A stretch of DNA of 64,000 bases, from positions 1 through 64,000 of the forward strand of contig JAHBVR010000007.1 in assembly GCA_019637395.1 (NCBI GenBank), given 5' to 3'. Source of the DNA: Vulcanimicrobiota bacterium (GTDB lineage Bacteria; Vulcanimicrobiota; Xenobia; Xenobiales; JADMJV01). This document shows positions 1,316 through 43,485 of this stretch, piece by piece (position 1 is the first letter of the stretch; the number at the start of each line of letters is the position of its first letter). Under the pieces are notes generated by a model that ran no database searches, was not told where the DNA came from, and saw only the letters and a program-made list of their open reading frames with translations. Both the position numbers and the translations under genes were made by a program.

Positions 1316-1555
1316 ATGTCCGAAAGTCGCCGACTCCTCCACTCCCTGGTTCGCCCCTTCCAAGCAGGAGAGAACGACAGCGCTGCCAGGCTACGCCTGG
1401 CTCTGGAAATGATGGGTGCCGGCATGGAGATGAAGCGACTGAACCTTGCGCGCTCTCATCCACGGGAGAGCCCTGAGGAGATCGCTGCTCGACTCTCCCA
1501 ATGGGTCCAAGACCAACCAGTTGCCCCGGGGCTTCGCCTCCGCGACCTGCCTTGA
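1316..1555 (+). CDS. Small antitoxin-like protein (Rv0078B-like family), probably part of a decayed pair
   Basis: The 79-residue product contains ALEMMGAGMEMKRLNLARSH followed by ESPEEIAARLSQWVQDQP. This matches the small helical proteins (about 70-90 aa; R/H-P-E/D-A-S-E-E-I then a W-containing helix) that sit directly upstream of AbiEii/MenA-like nucleotidyltransferases. Its frame appears intact and overlaps the next gene by 55 bases, as expected for such pairs. The partner is frameshifted, so any toxin-antitoxin function is probably lost. The family assignment comes from pattern memory, not a search. Confidence 0.45.
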   Translation: MSESRRLLHSLVRPFQAGENDSAARLRLALEMMGAGMEMKRLNLARSHPRESPEEIAARLSQWVQDQPVAPGLRLRDLP

Positions 1556-1964
1556 ACCGCTTCCCAGAATACCTTCTCCAAATCGGACAGCACCTTCAAA
1601 CTGCTGGAACAAGTTGGTGTCTGATCGGTGGTCTGGCTGTCGGAGCTCGAACAAACCCACGCTTCACGAAAGACCTGGATCTGGCGGTCAGCAGCTCTGA
1701 TGACGAGGCCAGCGAACAACTATTGTTCGCGCTCCAGAGTGCCGGCTATCGCATAACCGATTGGCGACTGCTCGCCTGGCTCCTCCGGAAGCTCAGGAGC
1801 CTGTGGTCATCGATTTACTCTTTGCATCCTCGGGCATCGAAAGCATGATCGTGTCCAGGTCGGAAGCCTTGGAAGTGTTCCCGAATGTCCGAGTCCCGGT
1901 TGCTAGCCTGGGCGACCTGATCGCGATGAAGATCCTCGCCCGAGAATCGAGGGCGCCGACTTGA
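1501..1964 (+). pseudogene. AbiEii/MenA-like nucleotidyltransferase, frameshifted and truncated
   Basis: The first frame gives CLIGGLAVGARTNPRFTKDL followed by DLAVSSSDDEA. That is the nucleotidyltransferase signature G-G-x-A-V with the R-x-T-x-D-x-D metal-binding motif. Around 1760-1790 the reading moves to frame 3 and continues as VVIDLLFASSGIE, then NVRVPVASLGDLIAMKILAR. The last part is the conserved segment that normally leads into a D-x-x-D-L-x-x-L helix, which is absent. One frameshift plus loss of the C-terminus make it non-functional. It pairs with the small protein upstream. Confidence 0.6.
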
Positions 1965-2027
1965 AGCAGAGCTTGGCGCCGCCGAATCAGAATTTCCTCC
2001 ATACTCGACGCCCGAGGTTTAGATCCT

Positions 2028-2261
2028 ATGTACATAGCCATCCGCCGACTCTCCACAAATGAAGACAGCGCCGACTACGCCTTCGGGGAAGACGAATCGC
2101 GAATGGGCCGACTGCGCCTCAACCTCGAGACAGGCACCGCAACGCTGGTCGAAGCCTGCCCCGACGACTCCAGCCAGGGCATCTACCAACGCGCCGCCCG
2201 CAAGCTCTTCCTCCACTGGCAGAAAGGCGAGAGCCCGGAAACCACCTGCTGGGCCACCTGA
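2028..2261 (+). CDS. Conserved small protein, function unknown
   Basis: The product is 77 aa and begins MYIAIRRLSTNEDSADYAFG. It continues with a short beta-rich core (ESRMGRLRLNLETGTATLVE) and ends with AARKLFLHWQKGE followed by CWAT. This layout resembles a small conserved family seen in actinobacteria and other environmental bacteria, but I know no function for it. The frame is clean although both neighbours are broken, so it may be a survivor of the decayed region or very recently silenced. Confidence 0.6.
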   Translation: MYIAIRRLSTNEDSADYAFGEDESRMGRLRLNLETGTATLVEACPDDSSQGIYQRAARKLFLHWQKGESPETTCWAT

Positions 2262-2263
2262 AG

Positions 2264-2590
2264 GCCCCACCCAACCCCCGCGGCGAAGAATTGCGCAAGC
2301 TCTTCCCCACCCCCAACCTGCGCGCTCTCACCGCTCGAAACGACCTGCACTGGGCCGCCCACGGCGTCACCGCCGACCCCGAGCTGGCCAAACACTGGCG
2401 CGACAACAACATCCTGGAAATGGTCGAACCCGGCGACCTCATGACCCACCTCACCGAAACCTTCCTGGCCGTCCAGAGCGACGATTGGATGAGCCAGTTC
2501 TACCTCTACCTCATCGGCCATCGCGGATTGCTGCGTAACGAACTGCGCAACAAGCCCATCTTGCGCACCGAGCTCAACCAGCACCCCTGA
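2264..2590 (+). pseudogene. HSP90-like (sacsin-type) ATPase fragment
   Basis: The frame is open directly after the small protein and has no credible start. The translation (PRGEELRKLFPTPNLRAL, then SDDWMSQFYLYLIGHRGLLR, then LRNKPILRTELNQH) resembles the middle of large HSP90-like ATP-binding proteins, in which a 'W..rLY.fL.gh..L' helix precedes 'L..KPi.Rl.dG.hV'. The ATP-binding N-terminus and everything after the histidine are missing. Such proteins often sit next to helicases in defence islands, which fits the next fragment. The assignment is by pattern only. Confidence 0.4.
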
Positions 2591-2609
2591 GACCACCGGG
2601 GGACTGCCC

Positions 2610-2900
2610 GCAGGCTGGGAAACCGGCTTCGAACTCCTGGAGAACCGCCTCGCCGACCGCCGCCTGGGGCGTCTGGCCGAACTCTCCGTCCGCAACGAAG
2701 TCCTGGTCGAATGACAACTCGCCAGCCTCGACGCCTACATCCGCATCCGCCTCAACCAGGTCGACCACGAACTCACCCTGGTCAGCGAGGACCGGGTGGT
2801 GCGGATGAAGCAGTCCGAACGCCTGCGTATCGAAGGCGACCTCGCCGTCCCCGACCTTCTCCAACTCCAGCGCGATGATGGTGAGCAACCGGTCGTCCAG
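2610..2900 (+). pseudogene. Helicase-type C-terminal coiled-coil fragment with an in-frame stop
   Basis: Frame 3 reads ENRLADRRLGRLAELSVRNE, meets TGA at 2712, and continues in the same frame as QLASLDAYIRIRLNQVDHEL, then SEDRVVRMKQSERLRIEGDL. The Arg/Glu-rich helical style is that of the C-terminal arm of large SNF2-type helicases found with HSP90-like ATPases. A single in-frame stop, no start and no upstream motor domain indicate a relic. The assignment is weak; a generic coiled-coil protein is possible. Confidence 0.3.
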
Positions 2901-2931
2901 CAACACCTCGGCCGGGCTTCTCTTTTCGCGC

Positions 2932-3135
2932 TTAGACTGGTCGTAGCAGGTGGCGAAGAGTTTTCTTCGCAAAAGCCGGATTGGCCCGCACCCAATCGGC
3001 CGTTTCGGAGTACCTGCCGGCCATCAGGGCCGTGTTCACGCACTCGAGAAAAGAACTATAGTCCTGAGCGGGCGGTTCAGCCAGCGCCAGGCTCGTCAGT
3101 AAACAGCCCAGGACCACAATTTTCCCCAGTTTCAT
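2932..3135 (-). CDS. Short exported protein, possibly truncated
   Basis: The 67-aa product starts MKLGKIVVLGCLLTSLALAE, a clear signal peptide with likely cleavage after the alanines near residues 17-19. About 45 mature residues follow (YSSFLECVNTALMAGRYSET and onward). It is divergent from the lipoprotein at 3241, so the roughly 100-base gap should hold both promoters. Its 3' end runs into the helicase-like relic, which suggests that the original C-terminus was lost in a rearrangement. No family is recognised. Confidence 0.45.
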   Translation of the reverse strand: MKLGKIVVLGCLLTSLALAEPPAQDYSSFLECVNTALMAGRYSETADWVRANPAFAKKTLRHLLRPV

Positions 3136-3240
3136 TTGGGGAGGTTTGCCGTCGCCCCCTTTGCCTTCACTCTGGGCAGAGGTTTAGCTGGCGGGCTGAG
3201 GAACCTTGGGGCTTGGGTGGGCGGACGGGAAAGCGGTGCA

Positions 3241-5721
3241 ATGAAATTGCGGTACGGGTGGCTGGGGAGTCTTTTGATGGGTGCTTTGCTGGCCGGCTGC
3301 GGTAACTCCAGCGTCAGCGTCGGAACCGATTTGGGCGGGGCCATCCCGGCTCCGGCGCAGGCCCGGCCTCTGGGGCGAGTGTATTTGCAAAAGGCGGTGG
3401 CGCTGGCCCCGATCACCTTCCGCGACCTGCAAGGGAAGGTGCTGGGGCAAGCCACGACCACGGCCGAGGGGGAAATCCCCGGCCAGGCCAATCTGCCGTC
3501 CCACTTTCTAATCCAGGTGGACCTGCCCGACGGCGAAAAACTGGGGGCGGAGGTGGAAGGCGAGGCCCGGGGAGTGGTGGTGAATGTGCCCACCACCCTG
3601 GCTTTGCTGATGCACAGTCGGCATCAGGAGTGGACGCGCGACGAGGCGGCCGCGCGGGTGGTGCGATTTCTGGGGGCGCCTCCCAGCTGCACGCCGGAAT
3701 CGTTGGACAATTCTCGCCACGGCTACTTTGTGGTGGGCACCCTGCTACGCGAGGCGGGGCCGCACGGGGGACTGGGGGCGTTCCTGGTGAAGCTGGCTGA
3801 GCAGGCCGAAACGGGGCGGACGCACGCTTTTGTGGAAGTGCCCGATGGGGTCATCGACTTCCTCTCTGAATGCGCCAAGGTGGTGGCCAAAGACGGTCTC
3901 AAGGGCGTGTTGCAAGCGGGGGCGGAGTCGGCCGTGGGTTGGGTGTGCGAATCTTTAGGGTTCAACAACCCCTTCCCCACCATGCTGGACATTTCCAATC
4001 AGATCCGCGCGCTTTCCGATCAAATCACTTCGCTGGCCGCCAGTGTGGCCCGCGGGAATGCCCAAAATGACTACAATCAGGCCGTGGCCCGCCTGGCCAG
4101 CGACGCGGTCGAACCCATCCAGCTGCAGTCGAGCACGCTGGCCACCACCATCGGCAACGCGGTGCAGGCTAATGTGACCGCTCCCATTCCGGTCAACAGC
4201 GTCAGTTCGGCGGTGTCGGCCGTGGTCAATTCGTTTAATGTTTTTGCGGCGCGAACGGCGATGAACGAACTGAGCGACAATCTGTTGGGCACTTCAGCCG
4301 TGGGCGGTGTCGGACGGCGGCTGGAACGTCTCTTGACGGCGGTGGATGGACCTCCGCTGGGAATCAATTCCGATCTGAATATCTACATGGGCTATGAGGC
4401 TTTTACCAACAGCATTCTGAGCCCGCGCCGATCGGTTCTCGACTACTATCTTGCCTGCTTTCAGCAAGGCGCCAACCTGGACGCCGAACAATTGCATCTC
4501 AGTCAGAACTCGAGCATCCTGGTGGCGAACATTCGTCAGGGCCAGGCGGACTTTCGAAAGTGGGCCCAGGACCGAAAATCGGTTCAATTGCAATTACCCG
4601 ATCCACTTCCCTCCGATCATGTATTTCTGGACCGCAAGAACGGCTTAATGTGGTTTACCGATCGCGACGGTACCAATTTTCACCAGCGCGGGCATTCCGA
4701 TGCGGTCAAAGAAGCTCAAAATTTTCCGGGCACCGGACCCTACACCAGCGGATGGCGCCTACCTACCAAACACGAATTGATGGACTTGCTCTACCATGCC
4801 CACATCGAGCCCGCTTACGATGCCCAACAGGTGGCCGACAAGGAGCGTTCGCAGGTGTTGTACCGACTGGGCTGGGACATTTCCTATATGGATAAGGACC
4901 ACACCGTGTGGGCCTCGGACGAAACGGCCAAGGTAAATTTGGACAATGGTAAACATGAAAATAGAGTGGCTTCCTTTCACAACAATGACATTGTTCTGGT
5001 GCGCAGCTATCCGGGTCCCGATGACAACTTTGTGACCGAATTGGGCCAGGTCGACCCGCTGAGCGTTCGTCTCGAAGTGCTTGGGTCCCAAGTGCGGGCG
5101 CTGGCCACGGTGCGTGCCGCCAATGGTAATGGGGGAACCGGGAACAGCGCGGAGATCGACGTGAGCGGACGAGTGGTGTGGTCTAGCAGCGATGATTCCA
5201 TGGCCAGCATTTCCAACTTGCCGGGTAGCGAGGGATTGATCACCTGGCACGCCCAACTCAACCCGCGGCCGCTCACGCCGGTGACGTTTAGCTGCCAATA
5301 CTTCAAGCCGCAGGGCGGTCTCAATTTTCAAGTGGCGCAGGTGGCCAGCGTGGTGGTGCAGCCACCGGCCAGCCCCTCTCTACCCCATTTGAGCTCCATT
5401 CAGCCTTTTCCGCGAAATGTGGAGTTTAACATTCCCACTCCGCAAACCCCGGTTCAGCAGCGCTTCTCGGCGGTTCTCTTCTATCTCGACCCGGCCAGTG
5501 GTGACGCCCAGGTGCAGGACTTTCAGGAGGGCAGCGCACCGACGATTACCTGGACGCTCACCAATCGGGTCAACCAGCCGTTGGCCGCCAGTGAGAATTC
5601 GGGCTTCACGGATGGCAATCTGCTGGTCCTCAGCTCCGACCTCAGGACTTCGGACCTCAACGTCCACGCACGCGTGGGCACCGTGGAAGCCATCGTGCCC
5701 ATTCATTGCGCCGTTCGTTAA
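3241..5721 (+). CDS. Large lipoprotein with DUF1566 (Lcl-type) domain
   Basis: I chose the ATG at 3241 over an upstream ATG at 3136 because the protein then begins MKLRYGWLGSLLMGALLAGC, a lipoprotein signal with an LAGC lipobox and the lipidated cysteine at about residue 20. The 826-aa product should be anchored in a membrane facing outward. The middle part contains VFLDRKNGLMWFTDRDG and GWRLPTKHELMDLLY, followed later by a VWASDET segment. These are the W-R-L-P-T..E-L signature of DUF1566, a domain found in extracellular and cell-surface proteins. The C-terminal third looks like beta-sandwich repeats. The gene ends tail to tail with the methyltransferase, the coding regions overlapping by three bases. 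Confidence 0.75.
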   Translation: MKLRYGWLGSLLMGALLAGCGNSSVSVGTDLGGAIPAPAQARPLGRVYLQKAVALAPITFRDLQGKVLGQATTTAEGEIPGQANLPSHFLIQVDLPDGEKLGAEVEGEARGVVVNVPTTLALLMHSRHQEWTRDEAAARVVRFLGAPPSCTPESLDNSRHGYFVVGTLLREAGPHGGLGAFLVKLAEQAETGRTHAFVEVPDGVIDFLSECAKVVAKDGLKGVLQAGAESAVGWVCESLGFNNPFPTMLDISNQIRALSDQITSLAASVARGNAQNDYNQAVARLASDAVEPIQLQSSTLATTIGNAVQANVTAPIPVNSVSSAVSAVVNSFNVFAARTAMNELSDNLLGTSAVGGVGRRLERLLTAVDGPPLGINSDLNIYMGYEAFTNSILSPRRSVLDYYLACFQQGANLDAEQLHLSQNSSILVANIRQGQADFRKWAQDRKSVQLQLPDPLPSDHVFLDRKNGLMWFTDRDGTNFHQRGHSDAVKEAQNFPGTGPYTSGWRLPTKHELMDLLYHAHIEPAYDAQQVADKERSQVLYRLGWDISYMDKDHTVWASDETAKVNLDNGKHENRVASFHNNDIVLVRSYPGPDDNFVTELGQVDPLSVRLEVLGSQVRALATVRAANGNGGTGNSAEIDVSGRVVWSSSDDSMASISNLPGSEGLITWHAQLNPRPLTPVTFSCQYFKPQGGLNFQVAQVASVVVQPPASPSLPHLSSIQPFPRNVEFNIPTPQTPVQQRFSAVLFYLDPASGDAQVQDFQEGSAPTITWTLTNRVNQPLAASENSGFTDGNLLVLSSDLRTSDLNVHARVGTVEAIVPIHCAVR

Positions 5722-29788: not shown

Positions 29789-32700
29789 GTGCAGTGGGAT
29801 TTACCCGAAGGGATTTCCGTGGAGGATCTCTCGCAAAGGCTGGTTTCTCTACTGGCCGTGGATCTGTCCGCCGATCGCGTTTTGATCCTGTACGACGACC
29901 AGGGCAACCACGAATTCCAGGTGCTCAGCCACCGCAAGCTAAATGCCCACCGCGTCTGGACCGGCGAGGAAGTCGACCTGTCGTTGCTCAGAGCCACCGT
30001 CCAAATGGGCAGCCTCCAGGTCGGCAAGTCGGAGGGGCGCAACGCCCTCTGTTGTCCGGTGGTGGTCGATGGGCGCACCGCGCTGATCGCATACGCCGAC
30101 CGTCTGGAAGCCGAAGAGGAATTTTCCAATGAAGAATTGGAGCGGGTTCTCGACTTTGCGGAACTGGCCGCCAGGCGAATCCCTAAAGTAATCCCTCCTC
30201 CCCCGCCCGAGCCAGTGGTGGTTCAACCGGAGGCGCCCAAAACGCCTCCGCCTCCCGAACCGCCGCCTCCTCCGCCGGCCAACCCGGTCACCGCCGAAGC
30301 CAGCGCTTATCGACCCTCGGGCCGCTCGTTGGTGGGCCAGGGAGTGGTGGCCGGCCGCTTTGCGGTGCTGCAACCGCTGATGACCTGCCGTTTTTCAACT
30401 TTGCTCTACGGTTTAGATCGCGCCACCCAGATGCCGGTTGTATTGCGCCGCCTGGAGACGGAAGGACAGCCCGACCGCGAGGCTCGCCTGCAAATGCTGC
30501 GGGAGGGCCGCTTTCTCTCGCGCCTCCAGCATAGAAACCTGCCACGGGTTCAGGAGATCGTGGAAGACCGCGGCGGCGTCTATCTGGTCCTCGAGGAATT
30601 CGAAGGCGTAACCCTCGAAGAATTGGCCCGGCAGCAAACCCAAGGACTTTCCGGCGAAATGCTGCGCCGCTACCTCGATCAATTTCTGGACGTGCTCGAC
30701 TACCTGCACGGCCAGGATCCGCCGCTAATCCACCGCGACCTGCGGCCCGACAGCTTGCTGGTGACGCCCCACGGCGTCATCAAACTGGCCGAATTCGGAT
30801 TGGCGCGCATGATGGAGGGAGGCGGGGACTCCCAACAAACGGCCTTCCGCTCCCAAGGCAACCCTTACTATGCCGCTCCGGAACAGCTTCTTGGCGATCG
30901 TTCCCAGCGCTCTCACGACCTCTATTCGGTGGGCGCCATTCTCTATCGCCTGGCCACCGGCCAGGTTCCGGCCAAATCCGTGGAACGCATGATGGGCTCG
31001 GCTCAGCAAATCTCTCTGAGTCAGCTCCGGCCGGATTTGGAAGCCGATCTGGTGGCCTGGATCGAGGGCCTGCAACATCCCGATATCGACTTGCGCTTCC
31101 CCAGCGTGGAGGCTGTGCGCCAGTCGCTAATCCCACCGCCGCCACCAGAGATTCCGGCCGCCCCTGTGGCACCCGAGCCTGAAGCGGCACCGAAACCAGC
31201 TCTGCAAATCACTCCCTCGGGTAAGCTCGGCCCGGCTCAGCCCAAGCCCGCGCCGCCGCCAACTACGCCTCCGGCCAAAAAGGGGGGCTTGGCCGACAAG
31301 TTCAAGATTTGGAACTACCTGCTCGGCAAAAAGAAAGCGCCCGAGGTCGAGTTCCTCGAGGTTAAGGATGATATTGTCGAGTTCCACTCGGACTTGATGT
31401 CCGGCGAAGACGTGGACCTGAGTCAACTCATGCTGATGATGGAAGTGGGCAAGATCATTCCGGAAGCTGTGGCCAAGTCCATTCAGGGCGTCGCTTATCA
31501 GCTCGCGGAAGATGGCACCCTGCTCATCGCCTGTAAGGATCCCACCGAGGTCCATATCTACGACCACGTCAACATGGCCACTCACGGGGCCTACAAGCCC
31601 AAGTTGATGCGCGCTCCGGCCACTCAGATCGATCTGGCCATGGAATTCTACTATCGGCGCAATCAATTTGCCGATTCCCGGCCCTGGAACGAATGGCTGG
31701 AGCGCAAGTCCTTCGAAACCGAAGAGCTGCACGTGGCCAACCCGATGGCCGATGTCGCCTACGGCGCCGACGAGATCACCAGCCCGATCATCGCGGCCGT
31801 GGACAAGCTGGTCAAAGAAGCCATTTCCGTGGGCGCCAGCGATATTCACATGGAATGCTACGATACCGGCCTGGAACTGCGCTATCGCATCGATGGCGAA
31901 CTCAACCATATCGATCGATTCAGTTCGGTGGATGCTTCCGCCATGGTGAAGCGACTGAAAGTGATGGCCAACATGGACATCGCCCAGGAGCGCGTCACCC
32001 AGGGCGGCCGTATCTCGCTGAAGATCGGCGGCCAGGAGTTTGACCTGCGCGTCAGCGTCGTGCCGGTTCCCGCCGGTGAGAGCGTGGTGATGCGTATTCT
32101 CAAGAAAGGCGCCTTCAATCTCACCCTCAAGGATCTGGGCTTTCAGACCAGTACAAAAGACAAGTTCGGCACCATTCTCTCCCAGCCTTACGGCATGATC
32201 CTGGTGTGCGGACCGACCGGCTCCGGCAAAAGCACCACGCTCTACGCCAGTCTCAAACAAATTCAACGCCCCGACCGTAAACTGCTGACAGTCGAGGACC
32301 CGATCGAATACCAGATGCCGGGGATCTGCCAGGTGCAAGTCAATGTGGCCCCGCGCGAGGAGGAGAAAAAAGTTACCTTCGCCCGCGTCCTGCGCGAATT
32401 CTTGCGTCAAGATCCGGACGTGATTCTGGTCGGCGAAATTCGCGATACCGAAACGGCAGCTATCGCGGTGCAGGCTGCGCTGACCGGCCACTTGCTGCTA
32501 TCCACCATCCACACCAATGACTCGGTAGGCATCGTGGCCCGACTGATGGACATGTCGGTGGAACCGTTCCTGATCGGCTCCACGCTGCTCGGAGGACTGG
32601 CCCAGCGACTGGCCCGCAAAATCTGCACCGAATGCCGAGAAGAAATCGAAGTGACCGATGAACTTCGGGAAGTCTTCGAAAAGGAACATATGGACGTCGC

Positions 32701-32953
32701 TCCCCGCATGTTCAAAGGACGTGGCTGCAAACGCTGCCACGGCTCGGGCTACCGCGGACGAGTGGGCCTTTACGAACTGATGGAAGTCACGCCCGAGGTG
32801 CGCAACCTGATCAACCGGCGGGCTCTGGAAGAAGAGATCCGCCGGGCCGTCCAAACCAAGGATTTCCGGACTCTCTATAAAGACGGTCTGGAAAAAATCT
32901 CACAGGGGTTCCTCAGCCTCGAGGAAGTCCAGCGCGTATGCAAGACGATTTAA
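29789..32953 (+). CDS. pilB: GAF-like + pseudokinase + PilB/GspE secretion ATPase fusion
   Basis: An AGAGGAG precedes the GTG at 29789. Of 1054 residues, 1-130 look GAF-like, 133-165 are proline-rich, 184-445 form a Ser/Thr kinase-like domain, and 535-1054 form a PilB/GspE ATPase. Kinase marks are HRDLRPDSLLV (315-325), LAEFGLAR (333-340) and YAAPEQLL (361-368). The glycine loop is degenerate, VAIK lysine is Arg220, HRDxxxxN has Ser322 for Asn, and DFG is EFG, so catalysis is doubtful. The ATPase has a GspE_N-like segment (VGKIIPEAVAKSIQGVAYQL), Walker A GPTGSGKST at 808-816, Asp box RQDPDVILVGEIRD, His box TGHLLLSTIHTN, and four cysteines (CTEC, CKRC). PilB powers type IV pilus or type II secretion assembly. 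It is first of an operon with pilC. Confidence 0.9.
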   Translation: MQWDLPEGISVEDLSQRLVSLLAVDLSADRVLILYDDQGNHEFQVLSHRKLNAHRVWTGEEVDLSLLRATVQMGSLQVGKSEGRNALCCPVVVDGRTALIAYADRLEAEEEFSNEELERVLDFAELAARRIPKVIPPPPPEPVVVQPEAPKTPPPPEPPPPPPANPVTAEASAYRPSGRSLVGQGVVAGRFAVLQPLMTCRFSTLLYGLDRATQMPVVLRRLETEGQPDREARLQMLREGRFLSRLQHRNLPRVQEIVEDRGGVYLVLEEFEGVTLEELARQQTQGLSGEMLRRYLDQFLDVLDYLHGQDPPLIHRDLRPDSLLVTPHGVIKLAEFGLARMMEGGGDSQQTAFRSQGNPYYAAPEQLLGDRSQRSHDLYSVGAILYRLATGQVPAKSVERMMGSAQQISLSQLRPDLEADLVAWIEGLQHPDIDLRFPSVEAVRQSLIPPPPPEIPAAPVAPEPEAAPKPALQITPSGKLGPAQPKPAPPPTTPPAKKGGLADKFKIWNYLLGKKKAPEVEFLEVKDDIVEFHSDLMSGEDVDLSQLMLMMEVGKIIPEAVAKSIQGVAYQLAEDGTLLIACKDPTEVHIYDHVNMATHGAYKPKLMRAPATQIDLAMEFYYRRNQFADSRPWNEWLERKSFETEELHVANPMADVAYGADEITSPIIAAVDKLVKEAISVGASDIHMECYDTGLELRYRIDGELNHIDRFSSVDASAMVKRLKVMANMDIAQERVTQGGRISLKIGGQEFDLRVSVVPVPAGESVVMRILKKGAFNLTLKDLGFQTSTKDKFGTILSQPYGMILVCGPTGSGKSTTLYASLKQIQRPDRKLLTVEDPIEYQMPGICQVQVNVAPREEEKKVTFARVLREFLRQDPDVILVGEIRDTETAAIAVQAALTGHLLLSTIHTNDSVGIVARLMDMSVEPFLIGSTLLGGLAQRLARKICTECREEIEVTDELREVFEKEHMDVAPRMFKGRGCKRCHGSGYRGRVGLYELMEVTPEVRNLINRRALEEEIRRAVQTKDFRTLYKDGLEKISQGFLSLEEVQRVCKTI

Positions 32954-32965
32954 GAAGGGGGAGCT

Positions 32966-34219
32966 TTGGCTAGATTCAGATACCGGACCCGCGACTCGGT
33001 CGGCAAACAGGCCACTGGCGAGGCCAACGCCAAAGATTCCGACTCCATCGTCAAGGAGTTGCAATCGCGCGGCTTTACCGTACTCGAAATCGCCGAGATC
33101 GAAGAGAAAACGACCGCCCCCCTGGCCAGCCTGGGCAACAAAGTCCGCCTGACCCTGGGAATGAGCCACAAAGACCTGATGGTCTTCACCCGCCAACTGG
33201 CCACCACTCTCAATGCCGGCGTCCCTCTGCTGCGAATTTTAGCGGTGATGCGCCGGCGCAGCCGAAGCAAGACCCTGGTGGCGCTGTTGGAGGCGCTGAG
33301 CGCCGACCTGCAAAAGGGCCTGCGCTTTTCCGACGCGCTGGCCCAGCACAAGCGCATTTTCAACGACACCTACATCAACATGGCGCGAGTCGGAGAAGCT
33401 TCCGGCAATTTGCCGGAAATCATGACTCGACTGGCGCTGATGATCGAGAAAGAAGTGGCTATCCAGCGCAAGGTTCGCAGCGCCGCCGCCTACCCGGTTT
33501 TCGTCACCATCTTCACGATGGTGCTGACCTATGCGCTGCTGGTCTTCCTGATGCCGATGTTCACGCCCATCTTTTCCGGCGTCAACATCGACATCGCCAA
33601 GGATTTCCCCCTTACCGATTTCCTCATCAAAGCCAGCAACGCCGCCAAAGACCCCGCCACCATGGGCGCCCTGGCGGGCCTGCTGGTCTTCCTCTACTTC
33701 GTCATGCGGGCCATTCTGCGCACCGAGGCGGGCGCTTACACACGCGATCTGTTTTTCTTCAACGCCCCCATGTTCAGCAAACTGGTCGAAGAAAGCGCCG
33801 CCGCGCGCTTTGCCCGCACTTTCGGATTGCTTCTTCAGTCCGGCGTCCCCCTGCTTCAGGCTTTGAATCTGGTGGGCAACGCCTCCGGCAATCGAGTGGT
33901 GACCCGCTGCATCGAAAAAGTTGCCCGTGAGGTTTCCGAGGGCGGCAAGCTTTCAGAACGCCTGGAGCAAGCCAACGTCTTTCCCGACTTGATGATCCAG
34001 ATGGCTTCCATCGGCGAGGAAGCCGGCTCGCTGCCCGATATGTTTGACCATGTGGCCGCCTATTACGAAGAGGAAGTGAACGCGACGGTCAGCAGCATCA
34101 CGGCCGTGCTCGAGCCGGCCATGATGGTCATGGTCGGCGGGTTGGTCTGTGTCTTCGTCCTAGGCCTGTTGCTACCCATCCTGAGCCTGTCCACGCGAGT
34201 GGGCGGCGGACCAATGTAG
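32966..34219 (+). CDS. pilC: PilC/GspF inner-membrane platform protein
   Basis: GAAGGGGGAG lies before the TTG at 32966. The 417-aa product opens MARFRYRTRDSVGKQATGEA, the usual beginning of PilC, then SHKDLMVFTRQLATTLNAGV with the first cytoplasmic helical domain, FNDTYINMARVGEASGNLPE, and AAAYPVFVTIFTMVLTYALL as the first membrane helix. The second domain repeats the fold (FARTFGLLLQSGVPLLQALN, then MASIGEEAGSLPDMFDHVAA), and a last membrane helix is near the C-terminus. It should anchor the PilB hexamer in the inner membrane. It is 12 bases after pilB and 8 before the HD-domain gene. Confidence 0.95.
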   Translation: MARFRYRTRDSVGKQATGEANAKDSDSIVKELQSRGFTVLEIAEIEEKTTAPLASLGNKVRLTLGMSHKDLMVFTRQLATTLNAGVPLLRILAVMRRRSRSKTLVALLEALSADLQKGLRFSDALAQHKRIFNDTYINMARVGEASGNLPEIMTRLALMIEKEVAIQRKVRSAAAYPVFVTIFTMVLTYALLVFLMPMFTPIFSGVNIDIAKDFPLTDFLIKASNAAKDPATMGALAGLLVFLYFVMRAILRTEAGAYTRDLFFFNAPMFSKLVEESAAARFARTFGLLLQSGVPLLQALNLVGNASGNRVVTRCIEKVAREVSEGGKLSERLEQANVFPDLMIQMASIGEEAGSLPDMFDHVAAYYEEEVNATVSSITAVLEPAMMVMVGGLVCVFVLGLLLPILSLSTRVGGGPM

Positions 34220-34227
34220 GAGGTCCA

Positions 34228-35163
34228 GTGAGTACCGATACCGTGAGCTTCCCCTGGCAATCCGCCATCCAAGAACTGGCGTTGACGCGCACCCGCCAAG
34301 AATGGTCCAGCGCCCTGGAATACCTGGGGGGCCAACTGGCCGAGGCTGAAACTTGCACCTTTCTCACCTGGCGGGAGCCCCGCTGGCTCCGTCCCGCTTC
34401 GGGTGAGAGCTTTGAGGCACCCGATCAGACCCTGGTCGGCTCGGCCTGGCAGAACGTCGAGGCCATCTCCAAGTCCGCCAACGCGGGGGAGCTATGGGCC
34501 GGCCGCCCCGCCGTGGCGCCCTGCTGGGCCCTGCCCATGCGCAGCTTCGGCCGGGTCATCGGCATTCTCACCCTGGAGAAAGTGGGTCTGGATCCCAATC
34601 TGGAGGAATGGACCAGCATGCTGGATCTTATGGCCCACTCCTGGGAGACGGTGGGCCGCCTCGAGGACAACAACGCCTATCAGGAGCAAACCGAATTACT
34701 CTTCGTCAAGGCCCTGGAAGCCTTGCCCAATTTTCACTCCGGCCATGTCCAGCGAGTGGCTTTGACCGCCAGCGAATTGGGGCGCCTGCTCGATCTGTCG
34801 GCCTTTCAGCGCCAGCGTCTGCTGCGCGCGGGGCGCTATCACGACGTCGGCATGCTGCTTAACCCCAGCGACCATGCGCGTTCGGGCGCTCAGTACCTAC
34901 TGCTGGGCAAGGTGCACGCCGATCTGGCCTCGCTGGTGGAGAACCATCATCAGGCCTATGAGGAGAGTCTGGGACTGGGGTTGGAGGAATGGGTGCTGGC
35001 GCTGGCGGAACATTTCAGCGAGTACCGTGAAGTTCACCCGGATGAGAGTGTCGACGTACTGGTGCAACGATTCGTGATGCAGCACGGCAAACGCCATAAC
35101 CCGGCGGTGCTGGACGCTCTGGTGGGCCTGTCGGTCTCGGGAAAACTCGAGGAAATCGGTTAA
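34228..35163 (+). CDS. GAF-like plus degenerate HD-GYP protein
   Basis: A GTG at 34228 starts eight bases after pilC. Residues 5-145 look like a GAF sensor (ETCTFLTWREPRWLRPASGE, then MRSFGRVIGILTLEKVGLDP). Residues 160-311 resemble an HD-GYP phosphodiesterase: FHSGHVQRVALTASELGRLL, then LLRAGRYHDVGMLLNPSDHA with the HD pair (205-206), then LASLVENHHQAYEESLGLGL. The HHExxxGxGYP signature is replaced by HHQAYEES with no GYP, and the usual G-K-I-G-I-P segment is changed. It may bind rather than hydrolyse cyclic di-GMP, or may be a regulator of the motor. It converges on the next gene with a four-base overlap. Confidence 0.7.
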   Translation: MSTDTVSFPWQSAIQELALTRTRQEWSSALEYLGGQLAEAETCTFLTWREPRWLRPASGESFEAPDQTLVGSAWQNVEAISKSANAGELWAGRPAVAPCWALPMRSFGRVIGILTLEKVGLDPNLEEWTSMLDLMAHSWETVGRLEDNNAYQEQTELLFVKALEALPNFHSGHVQRVALTASELGRLLDLSAFQRQRLLRAGRYHDVGMLLNPSDHARSGAQYLLLGKVHADLASLVENHHQAYEESLGLGLEEWVLALAEHFSEYREVHPDESVDVLVQRFVMQHGKRHNPAVLDALVGLSVSGKLEEIG

Positions 35164-41116: not shown

Positions 41117-41184
41117 TTTGACTTTGGCCCGGACCCACGTGATACTAACTACGATGGGCTTTTCTATGCGTTTTGAGGCACCGC

Positions 41185-43485
41185 GTGTCTAGATTACCGG
41201 GCGAAGACTCTCGGATCCGAGCTCTGGAGAAGCAGATCTCGGATAATCCGAGCGATCCCAAGCCCTACTATGAACTGGGTCGCGTCTACCTGGCCGGCGA
41301 GGACTGGCATAATTCTCTGCGCGTTTTAGAAAAGGGCCTGTCCCTTGACCCCAGTATGAATCAGGCAGCCTTCGAACTTGGTTGCGCCTACAGTCGCCTT
41401 TCCAACTGGGACACCGCCATCCGCACCTGGGAGCGTATCACCGATAGTGATGGTGAGTTATGCCTGGACGGTATCGACTACACCCGCCAGAGCCTGATTC
41501 GTGGAACCCTGGGCGCCTGGGAGCGATTCGACGACTCCAAAGATAAAAGTATTTTTAAGAGCTACAACCTGGGCATCGCCCATTTGATACTGGGCAAGAC
41601 CGAAGCCGCTATCCACTACTTCACCGAGGTCATTGTCGGCAACCCGCATTTCGAGAAGGCTCTCTATTACCGCACTCGGGCCAACCGCATGTTGGGCCGC
41701 ATCAAGCTGGCCGGTCCCGACTTGCAAAAACTGCTGGAATACCGTCCCCGCGATCCTTACGGCAACTTTTTGCTGGGCCAGTGCCTGTTGGAAATGGGGC
41801 GCACGCCTCAGGCCTTGAGTTGTTTCGCCAAAGCCCTGGTGGATAAGCCGGGCTACTTCAAAGCCCATCAGCAAGCCGGCGAGGCCAACCTGAAGACCCA
41901 GCAATACGAGCAAGCCATCACACACTTTAAAAAAGCCTCCTCCATTCGTCCGAACGCTTGCGAGAGCTACCTCGGCATCGGACGTTGCTATGAGGAACAA
42001 TTCCGCATGGACGAGGCCGTGGAAGCCTTCGAAAAGGCCGTCAGCATCGACCCAGAATCCAAGCAGGCTCACTTCTCGCTGGGAATGCTCTTTAAAAACC
42101 TGGGCCGCTCTCCCTCGGCCATTCGCCACTTGCAGAAAACCGTCGAACTCGATCCCTCGGAGGCGGAAGCCTACTACGTACTGGGCGTGCTCCAGTCAGG
42201 CCTGAAAAAGTACATGCAGGCCATCGGTCCGCTGCGTAAATGTCTGGAACTCGCTCCTGATCACGCCTACGCTCGCTATACCCTGGGCAAAGCCTGCCTG
42301 GCCTGCGAGCAGGTAGAAGAAGCCATCGAATGCTTCCATCACGCCCTCCAGCAAAATCCCAACGACGTCAAGACCCTCACGGCCCTGGGCATGGCCCATT
42401 TTCAGAAGAAACAACTGGATCAGGCCAAAAAGCAGTTCTCGGAAGTACTCGACCGCAATCCCCGGGAAGCCGAAGCGCACTACTACCTGGGCGCCACTAT
42501 GTTCCAACTCAACGACTACGACCGGGCCATCGAAAGCTATCAACGAGCCGCTCAGGTCCACGGTGACAGCGCCCTCAACTTCTTTACCAGCGGTGCCGTG
42601 GCCTCATACCGGCGCCAGTATGAGCAGGCTCTGCAGCTCTTCCGCAAAGCCACCGAACTGCGGCCCGATTCGGAAGCCGATATCAGCCGCTTCGCCACTC
42701 TGCAGTTGCTGGCCACGGTAGGCATCACCCACGCCCAGACCGGCATCGAACTGCAGTCTTTCATCGAACAACGCAAGGAACTCTTCAAGAGCATCGTGCG
42801 CACCCTGGCCAGCCTGCTGGACGCTCGCGACCAGTACACCCGCTATCACAGTTGGCGAGTGGCCACTATCGGAGCTATGCTGGCTCGCTACATCGGCCTT
42901 CCCGATGATCAGGTGGAAGGCATCGAAATGGGCGGACTGCTGCACGACGTGGGCAAAATCGGCATCCCCGAGCAGATCCTCAATAAGCCGGGCAAGCTGG
43001 ATGATATGGAATACGACCTCATCAAACGCCATCCCGTGATCGGCTGGGAAGCCCTCAAAGAAGTCGAATTCCCCTGGCCCCAGGTCATGCCCATCGTGCG
43101 CTTCCACCACGAGAAGTGGAACGGTAAAGGCTATCCCGACGGCCTGGCCGGCGACGACATTCCCTTTGAAGCCCAGATTATCGGCATCGCCGACTTCTTC
43201 GACGCGCTGACCACCAACCGTCCCTACCGGCGGGCTTTCAGTTATCAGGAAGCCCTGAATATCATGCGCAAAGAGTCAGGCTCGTTCTTCAACCCGGTGC
43301 TGCTGGAGGAGTTCGCCGAGGTGGCCGACACCAACGAATTCATCCTGGAATTACCCACTCCGGCCGAGATGGACGAGTCGGGCAACCATATTCTGCCCTC
43401 CATGGAAGAGAACTGGCAGGCCATCGCCGGTCGCCAACGCGACTCGGTCAGCGACTCCTGGGGACTGACGGCGCTACCGCACTAG
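41185..43485 (+). CDS. TPR-repeat protein with C-terminal HD-GYP phosphodiesterase
   Basis: I start at the GTG at 41185 (GAGG six bases upstream) rather than a TTG four codons earlier. About 540 residues of tetratricopeptide repeats come first (NPSDPKPYYELGRVYLAGED, then PESKQAHFSLGMLFKNLGRS and many more). A complete HD-GYP domain follows: YTRYHSWRVATIGAMLARYI, then GLLHDVGKIGIPEQILNKPG, then VRFHHEKWNGKGYPDGLAGD and IADFFDALTTNRPYR. Metal ligands and the HHExxxGxGYP signature are intact, so cyclic-di-GMP hydrolysis is likely. The TPR array probably docks a protein partner. It is cytoplasmic. Confidence 0.92.
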   Translation: MSRLPGEDSRIRALEKQISDNPSDPKPYYELGRVYLAGEDWHNSLRVLEKGLSLDPSMNQAAFELGCAYSRLSNWDTAIRTWERITDSDGELCLDGIDYTRQSLIRGTLGAWERFDDSKDKSIFKSYNLGIAHLILGKTEAAIHYFTEVIVGNPHFEKALYYRTRANRMLGRIKLAGPDLQKLLEYRPRDPYGNFLLGQCLLEMGRTPQALSCFAKALVDKPGYFKAHQQAGEANLKTQQYEQAITHFKKASSIRPNACESYLGIGRCYEEQFRMDEAVEAFEKAVSIDPESKQAHFSLGMLFKNLGRSPSAIRHLQKTVELDPSEAEAYYVLGVLQSGLKKYMQAIGPLRKCLELAPDHAYARYTLGKACLACEQVEEAIECFHHALQQNPNDVKTLTALGMAHFQKKQLDQAKKQFSEVLDRNPREAEAHYYLGATMFQLNDYDRAIESYQRAAQVHGDSALNFFTSGAVASYRRQYEQALQLFRKATELRPDSEADISRFATLQLLATVGITHAQTGIELQSFIEQRKELFKSIVRTLASLLDARDQYTRYHSWRVATIGAMLARYIGLPDDQVEGIEMGGLLHDVGKIGIPEQILNKPGKLDDMEYDLIKRHPVIGWEALKEVEFPWPQVMPIVRFHHEKWNGKGYPDGLAGDDIPFEAQIIGIADFFDALTTNRPYRRAFSYQEALNIMRKESGSFFNPVLLEEFAEVADTNEFILELPTPAEMDESGNHILPSMEENWQAIAGRQRDSVSDSWGLTALPH

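Follow-up and report, generated by a model that had tools for sequence, protein, structure and literature searches.

The window, as we call the whole stretch of 64,000 nucleotides analysed here, lies on contig 34 of a 7.66 Mb genome of Ca. Eremiobacterota. Its positions 29789-32953 (+ strand) hold one open reading frame with a GTG start and an AGGAG 9 bases 5' of that start, encoding 1054 amino acids in which a GAF domain, a proline-rich linker, a Ser/Thr-kinase fold and a PilB/GspE-type ATPase follow one another in a single chain. This arrangement had been proposed in an initial annotation made from the sequence alone, and it is borne out by Pfam matches and by the presence of the same fusion in other genomes.

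The GAF domain (residues 1-135, 29789..30193, +) is modelled by AlphaFold2 with pLDDT mostly 80-95 and scores 24.6 bits against PF01590, above the gathering cut-off of 22.4 bits, when residues 1-137 are scanned alone; a scan of the full-length protein leaves it unreported. Close homologues score 20.6-22.8 bits and the G006 homologue 35.2 bits. The proline-rich linker that follows (residues 136-183, 30194..30337, +) has low pLDDT and evolves fast, with 47% identity to G004. It leads into the Ser/Thr-kinase-fold domain, a predicted pseudokinase (residues 184-448, 30338..31132, +), which is separated by a second proline-rich and fast-evolving linker (residues 449-535, 31133..31393, +) from the motor. 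The motor itself is made up of an N-terminal domain resembling MshEN_C (residues 536-660, 31394..31768, +) and the PilB/GspE-type ATPase core with its zinc tetracysteine (residues 661-1054 plus stop codon, 31769..32953, +).

The motor and its neighbours

The T2SSE domain is matched strongly (PF00437, residues 664-1049, E 2e-126, 422 bits), and its Walker A sequence GPTGSGKS (residues 808-815, 32210..32233, +) and the other motor motifs (LVGEIRD at 880, STIHTND at 905 and CxxC at 946 and 980) are intact. With the core, Walker A, Walker B/Asp box and His box all present, the protein belongs with the type II/IV secretion ATPases, and the tetracysteine zinc motif and N2 domain mark it as an extension-type (PilB/GspE) motor rather than PilT. 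It scores below the curated cut-offs of both equivalog models, with 476.3 bits for PilB (TIGR02538, cut-off 675.65) and 507.9 bits for GspE (TIGR02533, cut-off 630.25). The N2 region is MshEN-like, weakly so here (PF05157, residues 542-623, 20.5 bits, under the cut-off) and more clearly in the G005 homologue (61.9 bits over two stretches). The initial annotation had called the motor complete; this holds for the catalytic part, while the N-terminal helical part of MshEN (N1) is absent. Neither the strict nor the relaxed form of the two 24-residue RLG-type c-di-GMP motifs of MshEN occurs in the window protein, in a scan that recovered both relaxed motifs from the positive control L220. Since the canonical PilB of the same genome (L001) fails the motif pattern too, we do not claim that loss of c-di-GMP control is special to the fusion protein.

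A gene for a PilC/GspF platform protein of 417 aa (32966..34219, +; PF00482, 1.6e-58) begins 12 bp 3' of the fusion gene, and PilC is found near the fusion at all loci but that of G006, where the contig runs out. Another 8 bp after pilC lies a gene (34228..35163, +) for a protein with a weakly matched GAF and an HD domain (PF01966, 1.6e-6), which is HD-GYP-like with the GYP motif lost. Its relatives adjoin the fusion in the genus and in G005; the HD-GYP active site is decayed in the genus and nearly complete in G005 (HHERYDGSGFP). Upstream, folD is transcribed divergently. Prepilin genes stand beside the fused genes at both G026 loci and in G016, and a motif scan found none in the window. Apart from its separate canonical PilB, the genome has a PilM-secretin-PilC-PilT block elsewhere.

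In the same genome (G000) about 41 loci of PilC/GspF type (86 domain matches) stand against only three secretins with strong matches and about eight motors of PilB/GspE type, and most of its PilC-like genes are orphans distant from motor genes. A link between orphan pilC and kinase genes was considered and found unconvincing, with 4 out of 40 lying within 1.5 kb where 2.1 would be expected. Further along the window, positions 41173-43485 encode a long protein in which TPR repeats are followed C-terminally by an HD_5 (HD-GYP type) domain.

Loss of catalytic residues in the kinase domain

The kinase match on which the initial annotation had made its reading depend is strong both by sequence (Pkinase PF00069, residues 202-401, E 1.3e-31, 110.4 bits against a gathering cut-off of 31.7) and by predicted fold: the AlphaFold2 model of residues 1-460 has a mean pLDDT of 85, and a Foldseek search of the PDB gave Stk1/PknB as the top match (E 1.3e-17). 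The model of the full-length protein was poor (pLDDT 50) and was left unused. The genome as a whole contains 95 protein-kinase domain matches.

Compared in a motif table with 54 other kinases, which were chosen by a pattern favouring intact kinases and are glycine-rich in the nucleotide loop with lysine at the VAIK position throughout (54/54), all 14 members of the family have RF in a degenerate glycine loop (here C200-R-F-S203, 30386..30397, +) and arginine in place of the lysine (here Arg220, 30446..30448, +). The loop stretch at residues 198-203 reads MTCRFS, with zero glycines, and Arg220 occupies the lysine position in an alignment to StkP as well. The catalytic loop, HRDLRPDS (residues 315-322, 30731..30754, +), keeps Asp317 and has Ser322 for the asparagine, which is replaced by Ser or Thr in 12 of the 14 members. 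EFG stands for DFG at residues 335-337 (30791..30799, +), and the aspartate has given way to glutamate in ten members. The HRD (315-317 here) is absent from both G026 proteins, so that its aspartate is kept in 12 of 14. Out of the set expected of an active kinase, namely the VAIK lysine, glycine loop, HRD aspartate, catalytic asparagine and DFG aspartate, the window protein retains the HRD aspartate alone. Structural residues persist: the alphaC glutamate (Glu239), Asp377 and Arg436 in every family member, and the APE glutamate (Glu365 here) in 13 of 14.

Structural residues kept while catalytic residues are lost is the usual pseudokinase pattern, and the domain is thus predicted from its sequence to be a catalytically inactive pseudokinase in which the chemistry has been lost systematically. 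The residue details given in the initial annotation (Arg220, Ser322, EFG, a poor glycine loop, with HRD and APE present) were all recovered in the motif table and the StkP alignment, and its pseudokinase call is well supported by the catalytic losses seen across the family.

Distribution and history of the fusion

The fusion of kinase and motor is found uninterrupted at nine other loci, which lie in eight genomes, with six genera represented in all: in the genus (G001, G003, G004), the family (G005), the order (G006), the class (G015, G016) and the phylum (G026, twice). The same fusion in independent genomes speaks against both misassembly and chance, and the joining of two genes by an assembly or frame artefact, which the initial annotation had considered, can be dismissed: a split gene is seen in G002 alone, at a break where the assembly holds unread bases, against nine intact loci in eight independent assemblies. 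A chance or out-of-frame reading frame was likewise ruled out by Pfam and by the omega values given below. An extra motor copy in G015 is cut by the contig end before the kinase position.

A search of 149 genomes in the phylum turned up no further fused member, and a search of genome contigs outside it gave, among the matches listed, no fusions other than those from Eremiobacterota and from records that correspond to these same genomes. In 392 genomes of Planctomycetota no listed match extended beyond the kinase, a weak negative with about four candidates scored per genome. Across 141 genomes of Myxococcota the top motor score was 495 bits, against at least 802 in the fusion subfamily; six motors of unusual length from that phylum are without a kinase domain.

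Fused proteins score 906-1006 bits against a motor profile that was built with them included and are therefore high by construction. The gap between their unfused sisters and the rest is unaffected by this: the unfused G017:C36 and G026:C60 and the contig-edge G015 copy score 802-874 bits, and all other PilB/GspE proteins of the phylum at most 562. The fusion subfamily forms one clade in the motor tree (support 100/100), and the 14 family domains form one clade among 42 others in the kinase tree (100/99). The order of lineages is the same in both trees, which argues for long co-inheritance. The kinases nearest to the family (G017, L052/L057) are intact ones, and two members of the motor subfamily (L217, L218) have no kinase, so that it is dispensable for some motors. 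Copies also occur on their own, as GAF-kinase proteins in G003 and G004 and as a kinase-N2 protein without motor in G006. The simplest reading of these sequences would be one ancient fusion, two losses and the release of stand-alone copies.

Two of the stand-alone GAF-pseudokinase paralogues (L055:7220-8473 and L056:5692-6909) are 49% identical to the fused domain and, in both genomes, adjoin an intact Ser/Thr kinase near PelG/PelF-like exopolysaccharide genes. The G006 kinase-N2 protein (L049:3488-5464) adjoins two GAF-HD genes.

What is attached N-terminally of the kinase varies: members of the genus and G006 have GAF there, G005 has MshEN (E 8e-8), and G015, G016 and G026 have nothing substantial; the sensor of the fusion proteins is exchangeable. 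Within the genus the kinase is under purifying selection, constrained equally to the motor, with omega of 0.025-0.067 for the kinase, 0.041-0.062 for the ATPase and up to 0.27 for the linkers, values that are rough as dS exceeds 1 in most genus pairs and is near saturation.

Discussion

Little is understood of how extension ATPases in type IV pili and type II secretion are turned on, and their N-terminal region is the presumed seat of the switch. The N1 (MshEN) domain of other extension motors binds c-di-GMP by way of two RLG motifs, and its coupling to stator or motor is presumed (PMC11656802, PMC5013675). The MshEN-type ATPases, such as V. cholerae MshE, M. xanthus PilB and Thermus PilF, resemble the window protein in their T2SSE core, Walker A/B, His box, tetracysteine, PilC partner and possession of an N-terminal regulatory region (PMC11656802, PMC5013675), but the window protein lacks the N-terminal helical c-di-GMP-binding part and has GAF and pseudokinase there instead. 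That a genuine fusion has existed for so long and been so strongly conserved suggests that the inactive kinase serves the motor as a regulatory component in the same chain.

We think it probable that this is an extension ATPase in which GAF and a regulatory pseudokinase have come to occupy the N-terminal regulatory region, and that this module gates the motor. Regulation by a non-catalytic kinase module, its position on the hexamer, its signal and the filament that the motor serves are what we infer. The hexameric motor would carry six GAF-pseudokinase modules on flexible linkers beside the N2 ring, each occupying the place of the helical N1/MshEN part, with the C-terminal part staying as the N2-like domain. 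As the input of the motor, the module might shift its conformation or bind a partner; the initial annotation had seen in it a putative nucleotide- or phospho-sensor. Candidates for what it responds to are a ligand of the GAF domain, a nucleotide bound among the arginines of the pocket, any of the cell's roughly 90 Ser/Thr kinases and the co-encoded GAF-HD protein. Such an input would license the motor to dock on PilC or to run its ATP cycle, much in the manner of c-di-GMP acting on other extension ATPases by way of MshEN. The motor would assemble a type IV pilus or pseudopilus.

A more specific version is possible but doubtful, in which the pseudokinase would bind ATP or another nucleotide metal-free in an arginine-lined pocket and gate the motor allosterically, in a mode like the one proposed for DLHK and ULK4. 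Arginines do lie in or near the pocket, R201 and R220 being invariant and R319 present in 12 of 14 members. The analogy is to the DLHK pseudokinases, which likewise keep the HRD aspartate, have pocket arginines and have been proposed to bind nucleotide without metal (PMC12599244); the fusion kinase is not one of them, for DLHK keeps the catalytic asparagine, which is Ser at residue 322 here and lost in 12 of 14. If true, a kinase fold would here have become a gauge of energy or of a signal within a secretion motor.

It is unlikely, in our view, that the pseudokinase is no more than a structural spacer, standing in for the N1 ring that other motors have and receiving no signal. Its position is that of the N1/MshEN helical part, and the unfused L217 and L218 show that the motor manages without a kinase. 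However, a spacer would hardly be expected to be constrained as much as the ATPase within the genus, to exist also in stand-alone GAF-kinase proteins (L055, L056) or to be accompanied by sensor domains (GAF, MshEN, HD).

We regard as improbable that the domain is active as a kinase of atypical kind and has the motor, PilC or pilins as its substrates, with Arg220 serving for the lysine, Asp317 as base and Glu335 binding metal. The HRD aspartate in 12 of 14 and the alphaC glutamate in 14 of 14 would suit such an enzyme, glutamate for the DFG aspartate is a conservative change, and POMK works without the VAIK lysine, as do the WNK kinases, which are active although they lack it. Yet the exchange of this lysine for arginine is the standard kinase-dead change, and here the glycine loop, lysine, asparagine and mostly the DFG aspartate are lost together, with HRD gone in both G026 proteins. 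That what we see is a once active kinase fusion now in decay is very improbable, for although catalytic residues are lost, and the whole domain in L217 and L218, the omega of 0.025-0.067 within the genus and the newly invariant loop RF and R220 of all 14 members are not those of decay.

Returning to the regulatory pseudokinase, a parallel in role is EssB/YukC of type VIIb secretion, where a secretion machine likewise contains a pseudokinase as an integral component without catalytic function (PMC12599244); that protein is a membrane protein of another system, unfused to a motor ATPase, and the comparison is by kinase fold alone. The DYD pseudokinases share the lysine-to-arginine change but lack the alphaC glutamate (PMC12599244), and the fusion kinase falls outside them in that Glu239 is kept in 14 of 14 and the motif is EFG, though Arg220 is present. 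The domains linked to DYD and DLHK kinases also differ from those of the fusion. PknB/Stk1-type kinases are of the same fold and sequence family, but the fusion differs from them in its lost catalytic residues, absence of PASTA domains and joining to a motor.

We found no description of a PilB/GspE-kinase fusion, of PilB phosphorylation or of a pilus pseudokinase in the open-access papers searched. This agrees with the claim of the initial annotation that no PilB of such arrangement had been described, within the incomplete coverage of that literature; a related case is a combination of MshEN with Ser/Thr protein kinases in one chain, as in G005, which the accessible text of PMC5013675 names in passing and no further. 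Within that scope the fusion is an undescribed conserved combination of known parts. With it, pilus and secretion motors join the few machines known to use bacterial pseudokinases. A natural motor with an inactive kinase as its N-terminal region, kept through the divergence of a phylum, offers a handle on the switching question, and the unfused sister motors of the phylum, of which one shares its genome with fused motors, are natural controls.

Since FHA, receiver and zinc-ribbon motor fusions occur in the same phylum, the kinase fusion is one case of a broader habit of secretion motors with built-in sensors. Long PilB frames in G004, G006 and G021 were considered as kinase fusions and proved to be receiver/zinc ribbon fusions. 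Four PilB-type motors (L219:6073-9168, L220:4613-8452, L220:8581-11679 and L221:4740-7373) have C-terminal zinc ribbons, three of the four with a response-regulator receiver domain, and the L220:8581 protein has two c-di-GMP motifs. In the genome of the window, a 715-aa motor (L005, G000:C1:81969-86102, 508-2652) begins with FHA and a TFIIB-type zinc ribbon before its T2SSE core, and a 722-aa frame (L010, G000:C6:8529-12362, 1492-3657) holds two tandem PilT-type ATPase domains.
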